DNA from: a virus
Virus record (IMG/VR): IMGVR_UViG_3300028840_001555
Location: 1 to 21,327 of that record
Direction: 5' to 3' (one strand)
DNA: 21,327 nucleotides
Part shown: positions 2,768 to 9,640 of the stretch, piece after piece
Layout: every line of letters starts with the position of its first letter
Position numbering within the stretch: position 1 is the stretch's first letter
The notes under the pieces: generated by a model
What the model was told of the DNA's origin: nothing
Seen by the model: the letters and a program-made list of their open reading frames with translations, nothing else
The model's database searches: none
Translations under genes and position numbers: made by a program

Positions 2768-4263
2768 TGGGTATGTTATCCAAGATTTTTGGCCGACGTG
2801 GCAAACCGTCAGCGGCCAAGCAGCTTAAAGCGACGTTGCAGCAGAATGACAAGTTGCGGCGCCAGCTTTTTAGCGTCATGGCATCGTACGATGCAGCGCA
2901 GTCCACCGACGCTAACACTCGTTACTGGACGGCGGCCGACAACCTTAGCGCCGACGCATCCAACAACGCTGGCACGCGGGAAACGCTTCGCAAACGTGCC
3001 CGCTATGAAATCGCAAACAACTCGTCGCTTGCAGGCATCGCAAAGACGCTTGCCAATGATCTAATTGGCACGCAGATTCGTTTGCAACTGACGGGCATGT
3101 CGGATGAAGTCGGCCGAATCGTCGAACGGCAGTTTCAAGAATGGGCCAAGGCGGTACGTCTGGCGGACAAGCTGCGGATGTTGCGGCGTGCCAAGCTCGT
3201 TGACGGCGAAGCGTTCGCACTGCTGGCGCACAATCCGGGAATTCGGTCGGCCGTGCAGTTGGATTTGGTGCCAATCGAATGCGATCGTGTCACCGATCCA
3301 TGGAACAGTGAAGTCGATCCGCAGAATGTTGACGGTGTGAAACTTGACGACTACGGCAATCCGGTTGCGTACTACGTTTTGCGGTCGCATCCCGGCTCGC
3401 AAGAGTGGAACGCGGTCACGACCGAATACGACACATATGATGCAGAACATGTCATTCACTGGTTTGCCTCTGAGCGGCCAGGCCAACATCGAGGCGTGCC
3501 AGAAATCACACCGGCACTGGAATCGTTTGCATCCCGTCGCGGTTATCAGCAAGCGGTGGTCGATGCAGCAAAGCTGGCAGCGCAATTCTCGCTTATCTAC
3601 AAAACATTGCAGACACCGGACGAGACAGCCCAATCGGTCGACGCGTCGACGCTCATCGATGTTGTCCGCAATATGATTCAGTTTGCGCCGGAAGGCTGGG
3701 AACCGGTGCAGCTAAAGGCCGAGCAGCCCGTTGCAGCGTTTGAAGGGTTTGACCGTCGCCTGCTTGGTGAAAACGCACGCTGCCTGAACATGCCGTTAAA
3801 TGTTGCGGCGGCCGATTCATCCGGCTACAACTACGCATCTGGTCGCCTCGATCATCAAGTGTATTGGCGGTCGCAGGATGTCGATCGTACTGATTTGGAA
3901 TTGACGGTGCTTGACCGCATCGTGCAGCGATGGGCGGCCGAAGCCATTTTGATCGACGGCTACCTACCGCAAGAGGTTCGTTACCTCGACACCGACTGGT
4001 CACACCAGTGGTACTACGACGGGCGCGAACACGTCGACCCGGAAAAGGAAGCGAAGGCGCAGACGGTACGCCTGACCAACAAAACAACAACGTATGCCGC
4101 AGAGGCCGCACGCAGCGGTTACGCGGACTGGCAAACCATGATGCGACAGCAAGCGGCGGAACAGACGTATGCCGCCGAGCTTGGCATCAGTACCCTTTAC
4201 GGAGAGCAAGCAAGTGGCACGCAAGAACCCGCGCCGCAAGGCGAGCCAACAGAACAAGCGTAA
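2767..4263 (+). CDS. Phage portal protein (lambda gpB family)
   Basis: This 498-residue protein should form the dodecameric ring at the unique head vertex, through which DNA enters and leaves and to which the tail connects. The N-terminal part (about 40-110) contains the lambda-type portal signature: a tyrosine/tryptophan-rich start (RYWTAADN), then RKRARYEIANNSSLAGI and KTLANDLIGT. A conserved middle (EHVIHWFASERPGQHRGVPE, about 223-242) is also typical of the family (Phage_portal_2). Its length is a little under lambda gpB (533). The ATG overlaps the previous stop in TAATG, and a second ATG lies two codons in. Its 3' end overlaps the protease-capsid gene by about 50 nt. Recognition is strong. 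Confidence 0.93.
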   Translation: MGMLSKIFGRRGKPSAAKQLKATLQQNDKLRRQLFSVMASYDAAQSTDANTRYWTAADNLSADASNNAGTRETLRKRARYEIANNSSLAGIAKTLANDLIGTQIRLQLTGMSDEVGRIVERQFQEWAKAVRLADKLRMLRRAKLVDGEAFALLAHNPGIRSAVQLDLVPIECDRVTDPWNSEVDPQNVDGVKLDDYGNPVAYYVLRSHPGSQEWNAVTTEYDTYDAEHVIHWFASERPGQHRGVPEITPALESFASRRGYQQAVVDAAKLAAQFSLIYKTLQTPDETAQSVDASTLIDVVRNMIQFAPEGWEPVQLKAEQPVAAFEGFDRRLLGENARCLNMPLNVAAADSSGYNYASGRLDHQVYWRSQDVDRTDLELTVLDRIVQRWAAEAILIDGYLPQEVRYLDTDWSHQWYYDGREHVDPEKEAKAQTVRLTNKTTTYAAEAARSGYADWQTMMRQQAAEQTYAAELGISTLYGEQASGTQEPAPQGEPTEQA

Positions 4264-6289
4264 GCAGGCCAGGATGCAGGCGTCCCGACAAATACCGCGC
4301 AAGCCTTACCCGATTCGCGCGACGGCTGCACCTGGTTCGCTTACGATTGCCAGCGATGCGGATGATGACGTCAAGTCATGTCACATCGTGGCCTATACGG
4401 GCGGCTTTCTAAATCTGCCCAATTACAAATTACCGGTTGTAGTGGACCTCGATTCGCTTCGCGTGCCCGAACGCCCGGTGATGCTATTGAAAAACCACGA
4501 CCAAGACCAACCGGTTGGCCATGTCACAGCCTGTCGTGTGGAAGATAACCAATTGCTAGCTGACGGTCTGCTGTCGGCTGCTACGGATGCGGCGGAAGAA
4601 ATCGTCACGTCCGCACGTCGCGGTTTCCCGTGGGGTGCAAGTATCGGTGCCGATCCAGAATCCCTGGAACCGGTCGCCGCTGGCGCGACGGTCACGATCA
4701 ATGGGCAAACACTCACTGGTCCGTTTTTGGTCGCTCGCAATACGGAGTTACGAGAAATTACGTTCTGTCCGTGCGGCGTTGACAGTTCGGCTTATGCAAC
4801 GGTTGCCGCGCAGTACGACATACAAGGAGAAGATGTTATGATGACACTTGAGCAATGGGCGGAAAGCCTGGGAATCGACTTGACGCAACTTGACGATGCA
4901 GCCGTGGCTGCGTTGGAAATCGCCTTCAACAGCTTGCAAGAGCCGATAACGGCCGAAGAAGAAGAGCCGGAGATTGAAGCGGCGGAAGAGCCTGCCGCAC
5001 CTGTCGAAGAAGAGAAAGCGGCCGAACCGGTTGCCGCCTCGCGTCCAGCGATTGCGACACCGAAGCAGAAGCTGCAAGCGTTGCGTGACCGCACTCCGCG
5101 CGCACCTGCCGGGCATCACGCCGCACCGAAGCAGCACGCCTCGCGAACGATTGAAGCCGCCTTGTGTCTGTCGGGTGGACTCGATGAAGATGCGATCGTC
5201 AACGACTATGGCGAGCGAACTGTCGAAGCGGCCCGCAAGGATTATCGCGGATGCTCGATTAAGCAACTGATGATTGAGTCGGCCCGTGCATCCGGTCAAA
5301 CGATCAATCCGTTCGGCTTTGGCGATTCGCACATCCGCGCCGCCTTGGAAACGGCCCGCTATAATCCGGGCATCCAAGCATCGGGCGGATTCAGTACGCT
5401 CAGCGTGTCGGGCATCTTGGCGAACGTCGCCAATAAGGCCTTGATGAATTCCTTCGACTCGCACAAGGAAACAGCCACAACGCTTTGTGATGACGACACC
5501 GCGCCGGACTTCAAGCAGAAGACACTGGCACGCTTCACACTCGGCGGCGGCCTGCAACTGGTTGGGCCGGCTGGCGAAATCCAAGATGTTGACGCCGACG
5601 ACGAGACGTACAACACGCAGGTCAAGACCCGCGCGGCCATGATCACGCTGACGCGTGAAATGATCATCAATGATGACCTTGGCGCGTTTCTGAAGATTCC
5701 GAAGCTGTTTGGTCGGAAGTCGAAACTTTCGCTCGATGAGGTGTTCTATACGCTGCTGCTCGCTAATACCGACAGCTTCTTTGCATCGGGCAACGGCAAT
5801 CTCGTTGCCACCGCATCGACTGAAGCGCTGAGCATTGACGGCCTGACCGCGGCCGAGGTACTGCTGGAAACGCAGACTGATAAGGTGGGTGATGCCATCG
5901 CGCCCGAAGGCAAGTATCTGGTGGTTCCTCCGCAGCTGAAGAACACAGCGCACGTTTTGATGACCTCGACGCACGTGAACGAAGCAGCAACCGCTGGCTC
6001 TCCTGCACCTGATGTCAACCCGCACAGTGGCAAGTATGAAATCGTTAGCTCGCCGTTTTTGCAGAATAGCGGCATCACTGGCTACAGCACCACGGCCTGG
6101 TATCTCTTCGCTGATCCGAAGGCCCTTCCGGCGTTCACGATCACGTATTTGAACGGTCAGAAATCGCCGACGATCGAAAACGCTGAAGTCGACTTCGCCA
6201 AGCTTGGCATGTCGTGGCGATGCGTCTTTGATTTTGGTGTCGATCAAACCGACCCGCGTGGTGCAGTCATGTCCGATGGTGCCGACTGA
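4214..6289 (+). CDS. Prohead protease / scaffold / major capsid fusion protein
   Basis: A 691-residue fusion read from GTG 4214, chosen because GGAGAG (4201-4206) is 7 nt upstream; ATG 4169 would add 15 residues deeper in the portal gene. Residues about 40-200 match HK97-type (S78-like) prohead proteases: His95 in LLKNHD, then PVGHV, then Ser143 in GASIGAD are the likely catalytic residues. Residues about 209-300 are Glu/Ala-rich and helix-prone, like a scaffold or delta domain. Residues about 300-691 are a HK97-fold capsid domain, with an FTLGGGLQLVGPAGE loop, a RAAMITLTREMIINDD helix and a C-terminal AEVDFAKLGMSWRCVFDFG strand. Protease-capsid fusions are known in phages. The protease would process the scaffold and mature the shell. 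A strong internal start (see 4824-4843) should give capsid protein without protease. Confidence 0.9.
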   Translation: MARKNPRRKASQQNKRKQARMQASRQIPRKPYPIRATAAPGSLTIASDADDDVKSCHIVAYTGGFLNLPNYKLPVVVDLDSLRVPERPVMLLKNHDQDQPVGHVTACRVEDNQLLADGLLSAATDAAEEIVTSARRGFPWGASIGADPESLEPVAAGATVTINGQTLTGPFLVARNTELREITFCPCGVDSSAYATVAAQYDIQGEDVMMTLEQWAESLGIDLTQLDDAAVAALEIAFNSLQEPITAEEEEPEIEAAEEPAAPVEEEKAAEPVAASRPAIATPKQKLQALRDRTPRAPAGHHAAPKQHASRTIEAALCLSGGLDEDAIVNDYGERTVEAARKDYRGCSIKQLMIESARASGQTINPFGFGDSHIRAALETARYNPGIQASGGFSTLSVSGILANVANKALMNSFDSHKETATTLCDDDTAPDFKQKTLARFTLGGGLQLVGPAGEIQDVDADDETYNTQVKTRAAMITLTREMIINDDLGAFLKIPKLFGRKSKLSLDEVFYTLLLANTDSFFASGNGNLVATASTEALSIDGLTAAEVLLETQTDKVGDAIAPEGKYLVVPPQLKNTAHVLMTSTHVNEAATAGSPAPDVNPHSGKYEIVSSPFLQNSGITGYSTTAWYLFADPKALPAFTITYLNGQKSPTIENAEVDFAKLGMSWRCVFDFGVDQTDPRGAVMSDGAD
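4824..4843 (+). promoter_or_regulatory. Internal Shine-Dalgarno and in-frame start for capsid precursor
   Basis: AAGGAG at 4824-4829 lies 8 nt before ATG 4838, with a second ATG at 4841; both are in frame with the fused gene. Initiation here would make a 483-residue product (4838-6289) holding the scaffold and capsid parts but no protease. The site falls exactly at the domain boundary and matches the consensus better than the site at the gene's own start. This is like lambda C/Nu3, where a shorter scaffold product starts inside a longer protease gene in the same frame. Confidence 0.75.
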
Positions 6290-7618: not shown

Positions 7619-8070
7619 TGAGCATGACGACATACGCATCAGTGACGGACGTGACGCAGTGGTTTGCCGATGAGCTGGACGGTAATTCGTGGTCGGTGAA
7701 GTTCACGGCATCACGGTATTACTTGCCACTGACGGCACTGAAAGATATTAGCGTTGCTAAGGTGTGCGTGTATCCGTCCGAGATTACGACTACGCCACGC
7801 TCGCACAGCGAAATGGTCGACGAGGTTGACATTATCATCAAGGTCTACGCACGCGTAACCCTTGGCACGTTAGCCACGCAAGACAGTTACTTGAAACTCG
7901 TGGAGGAGATACGCGACCACTTTTTGCATCCCGACACGACACCGCCAAGCGGCATCGCCTGGGAAGGCAGCAACATGTTGCTAACCATCGACACCGACTT
8001 AATGAATGAAGACAATCTATTTTCCGCCACGCTTACTTTTCCAATGACATGCGTGAGGACAGTGACATGA
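7618..8070 (+). CDS. Probable tail terminator / tail completion protein
   Basis: This 150-residue protein follows the head-closure gene with a TAATG overlap; AGAGGTGG (7603-7610) is 7 nt before ATG 7618, and an alternative ATG lies two codons on. It has an alpha/beta pattern: an N-terminal helix, strands around KDISVAKVCVYP and EVDIIIKVYARV, a helix around SYLKLVEEIRDHFLHP, and paired strands NMLLTIDTDLMNEDNLFSATLTF at the end. This is the usual order of tail terminator (gpU-like) or completion proteins, which cap the tail tube and join it to the head connector. Its last codons overlap the protease start (ATGA). No firm family match can be made by eye. Confidence 0.55.
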   Translation: MSMTTYASVTDVTQWFADELDGNSWSVKFTASRYYLPLTALKDISVAKVCVYPSEITTTPRSHSEMVDEVDIIIKVYARVTLGTLATQDSYLKLVEEIRDHFLHPDTTPPSGIAWEGSNMLLTIDTDLMNEDNLFSATLTFPMTCVRTVT

Positions 8071-9017
8071 AGAAATTAATTACAAGTTTATTACTGTGTA
8101 TGCTGGCAACAGCCGCCGCCGCCCAAGAGGTAGTGCGATACCAAGCCGATCGGTCTGGGTTGCACAGATGCGTGGTGCGTGTCCAGTGCGGCAATGCCGC
8201 GGGCACGGGCACTATCGTCGAAACTAATGGCTATGACGTTGTTATCACGGCCGCCCATGTCGTCAGTGGCGGCGATGCCGTGACACTGTGGGATGGCACG
8301 CGACGCATCAACGGTGAAGTCATCGGCCGCGACAAGGCCAACGACGTTGCCGTTATCGCGGCACGCAACCTTGACATGCTTGACGTTATCGCGGCACCGC
8401 TGCTTGACAGGCGGGCCAGGCAAGGCGAAACCGTGCAGCACTGCGGATATGCACGGGGGCGATTAGAGTCCACTAAAGGTGTCGTGCTCGCCGCCAATGA
8501 CTCACGGGCACGGTGCACCGGTGAAGCGATAAGCGGCGACAGTGGCTCGCCATTTTTCATCGATGGCAAAGTCGCTGGAATTGTGACAAACAAAACCACG
8601 TATAGCGTGCCAGTGTCTACAGGGCTATTCGGCCGCGTGCGATACTCGCAGCCAGAACCGGCTTTCATCGGCACGGCGTCACTGATTATCACGGCAATCA
8701 TTTACGCCAAGCCAATCATCATGAAAATCATTGAGCTTTACAAAGCGTGGCGAGCGTTTCGCAATCGCGTGATTCCAACGTCGCCGTGTTTGCCGTGTCG
8801 TCCGAAAAAAGACGAGGCACCGACACCGCCACCGGCACCAGAGCCCGCACCAACGCCGATGCCGCCGCCCGTTGGCTCGCCACCGCCGCCAGTCGTTGAA
8901 GCCTCTGGCATCTCGCCGTGGTGGATTGCGGCGGGGCCTGGTTGTATGGGCGTAGCTATTCTTACATTTTTTGCCGCGTGCATTGTCGGCATGAAACCTA
9001 AAGCAGTAAAGGGATGA
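8067..9017 (+). CDS. Secreted, membrane-anchored trypsin-like serine protease
   Basis: A 316-residue protein from ATG 8067, which overlaps the previous stop (ATGA) and begins with a classical signal peptide: MKK, a Leu-rich core and an ATAAAA-Q cleavage-like site near residue 19. The chymotrypsin fold is clear: His64 in ITAAHVV, Asp93 in KANDVAVI and Ser159 in SGDSGSP form the triad. After the protease domain come a hydrophobic segment (about 200-225), a CLPC motif (241-244), a proline-rich linker (about 252-278) and a second membrane span (about 285-308) with a short basic tail. It should act outside the inner membrane. Exported trypsin-like proteases are unusual inside a tail-gene run. With the next two membrane-protein genes it may form an envelope or lysis cassette. 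The enzyme class is near certain; the role is inference. Confidence 0.88.
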   Translation: MKKLITSLLLCMLATAAAAQEVVRYQADRSGLHRCVVRVQCGNAAGTGTIVETNGYDVVITAAHVVSGGDAVTLWDGTRRINGEVIGRDKANDVAVIAARNLDMLDVIAAPLLDRRARQGETVQHCGYARGRLESTKGVVLAANDSRARCTGEAISGDSGSPFFIDGKVAGIVTNKTTYSVPVSTGLFGRVRYSQPEPAFIGTASLIITAIIYAKPIIMKIIELYKAWRAFRNRVIPTSPCLPCRPKKDEAPTPPPAPEPAPTPMPPPVGSPPPPVVEASGISPWWIAAGPGCMGVAILTFFAACIVGMKPKAVKG

Positions 9018-9021
9018 TAAC

Positions 9022-9354
9022 ATGGCAACTTGGCTGATTATTACACTTTCTATCGTTGGTGCCATTGCCGTTGGCGTGCTTGGCTATCTGCTCTATCGCA
9101 AGGCTGATAAAACCTCTGACGATTTACAACGACGCATCAACAAGCTCGAAAATATGTTCGCCGCCGCTGGTTCGACGTGGATGAGCGAATTGCTTGAAGA
9201 CATCGTCGTCGGTGACGCGTCGGCAATCACGACTAAAATGCGTGATATTTTTGAAGCCGACAATACCACGGAGTTTTTCGTTGAAAAGGTGGCACGCCCT
9301 TGCGCGGCCTTTGTGCGCAAATATGACGCAGACCGCAAAAAGGCAGTGAAGTAG
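9022..9354 (+). CDS. Small membrane protein with N-terminal span
   Basis: This 110-residue protein has one strong membrane segment (about 4-26, WLIITLSIVGAIAVGVLGYL), followed by a basic YRKADKTSDD stretch and a helical, charged domain (to 110) with a short coiled-coil-like part (DDLQRRINKLENMFA). The basic residues after the span suggest that the C-terminal domain faces the cytoplasm. It begins 4 nt after the protease stop, with AAAGGGATGA upstream, so it is in the same operon. I do not recognise a family. A holin, antiholin or spanin-like partner of the protease is possible, as is a protein that excludes other phages; the sequence does not decide. Confidence 0.65.
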   Translation: MATWLIITLSIVGAIAVGVLGYLLYRKADKTSDDLQRRINKLENMFAAAGSTWMSELLEDIVVGDASAITTKMRDIFEADNTTEFFVEKVARPCAAFVRKYDADRKKAVK

Positions 9355-9373
9355 AAAGAAGCGGAGAGGCACT

Positions 9374-9640
9374 GTGGCAAGCGATAATGATATTTTAGCG
9401 GCAATTTTACAAAAGCTCGCTGACATTGAAAAAAAGATGGCGGTACACACTGAGCATCACGTGGCTATGTCGCGGCGATGCGAAGATCATAGCACCAAGA
9501 TCACCGGGATGGCTGGCACGCTCTACGGCAACGGGCGGCGCGGCCTCATCACCATCGTCGCCGTTCATAGCTGGGCGATTGGGCTCAGTAGTTTTGTCGC
9601 CGGTTCTTGTATCACGGCACTTGCCATGAAAGTATTTTGA
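9374..9640 (+). CDS. Holin/haemolysin XhlA-like small membrane protein
   Basis: This 88-residue protein starts at GTG 9374, preceded by GGAGAGG. Residues about 4-30 form an amphipathic coiled coil (ILAAILQKLADIEKKMAVHTEHH). It is followed by a short linker (YGNGRRG) and a C-terminal membrane span (about 57-86). A coiled-coil N-terminus, a basic junction and one C-terminal span is the layout of XhlA-type holin partners and similar phage lysis or tail-attached proteins. It stands 19 nt downstream of the previous membrane protein and third in the protease cassette. The topology is visible; the XhlA comparison is by architecture only. Confidence 0.6.
   Translation: MASDNDILAAILQKLADIEKKMAVHTEHHVAMSRRCEDHSTKITGMAGTLYGNGRRGLITIVAVHSWAIGLSSFVAGSCITALAMKVF

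Follow-up and report, generated by a model that had tools for sequence, protein, structure and literature searches.

A conserved internal start signal at the protease-scaffold seam of phage protease-scaffold-capsid fusion genes suggests two nested in-frame genes

Introduction

In-frame internal scaffold starts are already known, being annotated in lambda (C/Nu3) and in Mu (I/Z). In lambda, the annotation places an in-frame start within gene C, the protease gene, and the scaffold made from it lacks the protease but has the same C-terminus. In Mu I/Z (p20), the scaffold Z begins at an ATG inside the protease gene, preceded by an internal Shine-Dalgarno (SD) sequence. In herpesviruses, the scaffold UL26.5, which lacks the protease, is nested in frame; it is made from a separate internal transcript, and there is no fusion to the capsid protein. 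For PaMx73, an internal in-frame scaffold start like that of Mu I/Z has been proposed (PMC4378225).

Other phages carry the protease and the capsid protein in a single gene. In Gifsy-2-type genes (Fels-1, mEp460, MD8), protease, scaffold, and capsid share one ORF, and Lactococcus phage c2 encodes a protease-capsid fusion, l5. Descriptions have been published of the tripartite protease-scaffold-capsid gene of MD8 (PMC8508860) and of the fused genes of Paracoccus phages (PMC6536676), and neither of these descriptions of the fused genes mentions an internal start. A literature search covering open-licence papers likewise found no report of an internal start in protease-scaffold-capsid fusions. 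These genes pose the puzzle of why a shell would be built from subunits that each bear a protease, to which the conserved internal start described here would provide an answer.

Results

Organization of the fusion ORF

The window, that is the whole stretch of DNA analysed (21,327 nucleotides), is a 21.3-kb virus record with terminase, portal, capsid, and tail module. One of its ORFs combines an N-terminal protease with a C-terminal HK97-fold capsid protein (Table 1) and matches phrog_4523, 'major head and protease protein' (E = 3.9e-70). The GTG at 4214 aligned to the ATG start of the nearest relative (L002, 74% identity), which supports it as the start of this ORF.

Table 1. Features of the fusion ORF and of the internal start signal (window positions)
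Feature	Position	Strand	Remarks
Protease-scaffold-capsid fusion ORF, 691 aa	4214..6289	+	GTG start, TGA stop 6287-6289
Protease part, residues 1-208	4214..4837	+	assemblin-like fold; phrog_3244 head maturation protease, E = 2e-16
Protease-scaffold linker, modelled with low confidence, residues 199-209	4808..4840	+	AlphaFold2 pLDDT <50
Internal SD, AAGGAG	4824..4829	+	duplex dG -8.5 kcal/mol
Internal start codons ATG ATG (4838, 4841)	4838..4843	+	in frame with the fusion ORF ending at 6289
Predicted 483-aa short product, scaffold plus major capsid precursor	4838..6289	+	split-relative capsid genes
Scaffold/delta-like region, residues 209 to ~389	4838..5380	+	AlphaFold2: helices and disordered acidic segments
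Major capsid domain, residues 390-685	5381..6268	+	PF25209 Phage_capsid_4, E = 7.5e-40

In the protease part, H95 and S143 are invariant and E181 is near-invariant (in A4), and H95 and S143 are the putative catalytic His and Ser. When the N-terminal protease part was modelled by itself with AlphaFold2, the mean pLDDT was 79.8. The best 50 PDB matches listed by Foldseek for this model were all herpesvirus proteases (best E = 7.5e-5), with a modest TM-score of only ~0.4. A domain search found no PF00574 (ClpP) in the window fusion protein, and this, together with the assemblin-like fold, places the ORF in the fusion family and outside its ClpP subtype. In the full-length AlphaFold2 model, the low-confidence linker gives way to confidently predicted helices from about residue 212 on. 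The middle region, which opens with the conserved motif M-x-F-x-x-W-x-x-x-x-G, is a putative scaffold that would later be removed. For the C-terminal part, the top Foldseek matches were HK97-fold capsids. By eye, the N-terminal end of the scaffold seemed plausibly homologous to Mu Z (MNETLRKLLARLGV); hhalign gave this no support, and the idea was set aside.

An internal start signal at the protease-scaffold seam

The first-pass annotation had placed an AAGGAG and a double in-frame ATG at the junction of the protease and the scaffold-capsid parts; coordinates, frame, and the AlphaFold2 linker agree with this placement, and the product sizes that it had given follow from GTG 4214 (691 aa) and ATG 4838 (483 aa). 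The first internal Met of the fusion ORF is residue 209, and since this residue lies at the end of the linker, just ahead of the helices, the proposed start falls at the protease/scaffold seam. The window ORF has, at this boundary, an in-frame internal start site preceded by an SD, with a GGAG-to-ATG spacing of 8 nt for ATG 4838 and 11 nt for ATG 4841.

The signal is rare in the window. An SD energy of -8.5 kcal/mol is reached by 3 of 369 plus-strand ATGs (4838, 4841, and 12266), while the remaining nine in-frame ATGs of the fusion ORF have SDs no better than -5.2. A scan for AAGGAG-N4-9-ATGATG gave a single hit in the record and none in its reversed control. Compared to the full-length start GTG 4214, the internal ATG has a stronger SD (-8.5 versus -6.6) and a more accessible one (mean unpaired 0.69 versus 0.40). 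L002 retains both the GGAG and the ATGATG, although the surrounding stretch differs in length by three codons. Synonymous-codon shuffling of the window gene by itself gave p = 0.10.

Conservation of the signal among fused homologues

Relatives were collected from viral contigs, prokaryote genomes, and annotated phages. Using profiles for two protease types and the capsid, we obtained 233 fused ORFs, represented by 77 sequences at 65% identity, and took the end of the protease domain as the sole criterion for placing the junction zone. The first-pass annotation had regarded absence of the site from close homologues as evidence against an internal start; the site was present, with an in-frame ATG in the junction zone of 76 of the 77 representatives, which are mutually related and so not fully independent. 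The best junction SD was ≤-6 kcal/mol in 73% of the representatives, ≤-7 in 58%, and ≤-8 in 38%, compared to 5%, 2%, and 1.1% for 1,229 other in-frame ATGs and 10%, 5%, and 4% for out-of-frame ATGs in the zone. The start signal is present at this position and conserved across the fused genes. Near codon 200, L106 has no junction ATG, GTG, or TTG; a CAGGAG is followed there by a CTG at start-codon spacing, which could be a CTG start or a degraded site.

Split relatives and exchanged proteases

In L014-L017, L019, and L026, and separately in L036/L046, the genes are split. Their protease gene ends shortly past the protease domain and is followed by a separate gene for scaffold and capsid (~510-545 aa), which opens with an ATG that has a strong SD in most cases and a weaker one in L046. 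The stand-alone capsid genes of L014-L017, L019, L026, and L036 match the predicted 483-aa product in length and position, and when the N-terminus of split L014 (MNKKLRAFLVANGLRNEANEQEAW) is aligned to its fused sister L050 (MNQKLRAMLEKKGLDPSATEEQAW), the two match from the first Met of L014, which pairs with the internal Met of L050. L073 was dropped as a gene split, as its break falls inside the capsid domain.

Split relatives with a capsid start at the same point are also compatible with a vestige of gene fusion, in which once-separate genes lost the intervening stop, the old start is no longer used, and all subunits are made full-length and then cleaved. We consider this improbable. An unused start should decay, yet the SD and ATG persist in nearly all 77 divergent representatives while the neighbouring residues vary freely. 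Moreover, on a quick, unrooted capsid tree, the gene split appears as two changes, both nested among fused genes, which makes fission the simpler reading, with the root not inferred.

The same tree requires at least 9 switches between the assemblin-like and the ClpP protease type. In L163 (2391-4745), the capsid part belongs to the window's own group, yet the protease is of the ClpP type (PF00574, E = 1.5e-28). L163 retains the AAGGAG, AAGGAGCAACAC-ATGGATTTC, and the scaffold motif MDFNAWL. Since the start and the scaffold motif are kept in this ClpP-type fusion and protease types have been swapped repeatedly upstream of the start, the internal start appears to mark a seam between exchangeable modules.

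Coupling of the SD to an in-frame start codon

Within the junction zone, 94 of 141 SD 5-mers (67%) have an in-frame ATG 4-11 nt downstream, the corresponding numbers in the other frames being 8 and 0, whereas outside the zone this holds for 26 of the 450 SD 5-mers in these ORFs (5.8%). The SD-ATG spacing at the junction is mostly 5-9 nt. Residue 2 after the junction Met is small or polar in 98% of cases versus 62% after other Met residues (p = 2e-12), and in this it looks like a true N-terminus. In 11 representatives there is no ATG with an SD at ≤-5.5; in five of these an SD precedes a GTG instead, and in two the site lies just beyond the zone. SD-like sequences within ORFs are generally known to affect elongation, and an SD-like stretch might pause the ribosome between domains, as a folding aid or to stimulate frameshifting, with the ATG being incidental. 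The coupling of the SD to an in-frame ATG, which is almost lacking out of frame, the N-terminus-like composition at residue 2, and the replacement of ATG by GTG, another start codon, all argue against such a pause, which we regard as very improbable.

There is also very little chance that the motif is a by-product of a charged linker (K-E, G-E) and a subsequent Met being conserved in the protein, because, although AAG-GAG (K-E) and GGA-GAN (G-E/D) are common encodings and part of the signal survives synonymous shuffles, the 53 best sites show 51 different tripeptides ahead of the junction Met, the SD core occupies more than one codon phase, and synonymous-codon shuffling weakens the best SD (mean -7.2 real versus -5.4 shuffled, Wilcoxon p = 3e-10; a collective signal, with per-gene p-values mostly non-significant). 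For the 20 ClpP-type fusions by themselves, the synonymous test was not significant (p = 0.09).

SD strength at the two starts

The first-pass annotation had proposed an internal start giving two products, few of them long and many short. The start itself is strongly supported by conservation; the ratio is not borne out by SD strength, since over 73 representatives the mean was -7.25 at the full-length start and -7.42 at the internal start, with the internal SD being the stronger one in 40. SD strength was rejected as a general predictor of the product ratio, the two starts being similar.

Neighbouring genes and hosts

Inside the structural gene block, window positions 8049-9640 hold an ORF for a trypsin-like serine protease (PF13365, E = 1e-11) that seems to carry a signal peptide and has a C-terminal membrane segment, and two small membrane-type ORFs come next. 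No relatives of this protease ORF were found among 248 loci. Together, the three ORFs are possibly a lysis or surface-acting cassette. In the tail region, ATG 12266 starts a 149-aa ORF with an SD as strong as that of the internal start; it probably encodes an abundant tail protein, and related loci carry weak relatives of it (E ~1e-4) downstream of the capsid gene.

The genome matches of the fused family (L170-L249) are mostly from Planctomycetota, Lentisphaeria, and Kiritimatiellae (PVC group), which suggests a PVC host for the window virus. On the planctomycete chromosome CP087563.1 (isolate syqfu), we counted at least 11 separate fused-capsid-gene loci (L190, L191, L196, L199, L200, L203, L227, L231, L232, L244, and L245), an unusually large load of related prophages.

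Discussion

The combined observations indicate that the internal start is very probably genuine and that the fusion ORF consists of two nested in-frame genes with a shared 3' end, specifying a long and a short product. Initiation at GTG 4214 would give the full 691-aa protease-scaffold-capsid protein, and initiation at ATG 4838/4841 would give a 483-aa scaffold-capsid precursor. The two forms should co-assemble because the same assembly domains are present in both. Through co-assembly, the protease would enter the prohead as part of the long form, most shell subunits would be of the short form, and the protease would then cut off the scaffold part. We infer initiation at the site, the two products, their co-assembly and ratio, and protease delivery by the long form.

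With moderate confidence, we extend this reading to the fusion genes as a rule. They would be two nested genes in which the internal start yields the bulk precursor, the full-length protein is a minor, protease-delivering subunit, and the start serves as the seam for protease swaps and gene splits; this arrangement would be general and so far undescribed. If so, the main start of these capsid proteins is wrongly annotated, and the sub-stoichiometric delivery of the protease is explained. It would also suggest a natural way of loading an enzyme as cargo, by tagging a minority of shell subunits. The internal start can be tested in the culturable phages mEp460, MD8, RcKemmy, and c2.

The fusion genes would thereby follow the same nested-gene principle as lambda C/Nu3, Mu I/Z, and herpesvirus UL26/UL26.5. 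The parallel with lambda, which the first-pass annotation had drawn, is apt in principle, as both have an in-frame start inside the protease-encoding gene, from which a protease-free product with the same C-terminus is annotated in lambda and predicted in the window. It is incomplete in that the lambda capsid protein E has a separate gene and Nu3 is scaffold alone, whereas the predicted short product of the window comprises scaffold and capsid. In addition, the lambda protease is annotated in the S49 family and that of the window is assemblin-like. As positive controls for SD strength by the same measure, the SD of lambda Nu3 failed, being weak (dG -2.7), and that of Mu Z (CAGGAG, dG -7.4) passed. 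The window resembles Mu in its internal SD and ATG, and its capsid domain matches Mu gpT (PF10124); unlike in the window, the Mu capsid gene T stands separately. A profile comparison of the window protease with Mu gpI gave no significant sequence homology.

Closest in layout are the Gifsy-2-type genes of Fels-1, mEp460, and MD8, which have the same three parts in one ORF, a capsid of the same family, and an SD and ATG at the junction as well; their protease is of the ClpP type, unlike the assemblin-like protease of the window. It is the herpesvirus assemblins of UL26/UL26.5 that the window protease matches in fold.

Lactococcus phage c2 was not among the relatives recovered by searches for window homologues. 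Its l5 gene resembles the window ORF in having an in-frame SD and ATG at codon 131, right after the protease (AAAGGAG...ATG, dG -8.7); no other in-frame ATG of l5 has an SD stronger than -4.5. The gene differs in its shorter protease and scaffold and in its long SD-to-ATG gap of 11 nt. The c2 record (L252) annotates the mature protein from codon 206 and leaves the codon-131 start unannotated, a pattern that would be consistent with translation starting at codon 131 and the subsequent removal of ~75 residues.
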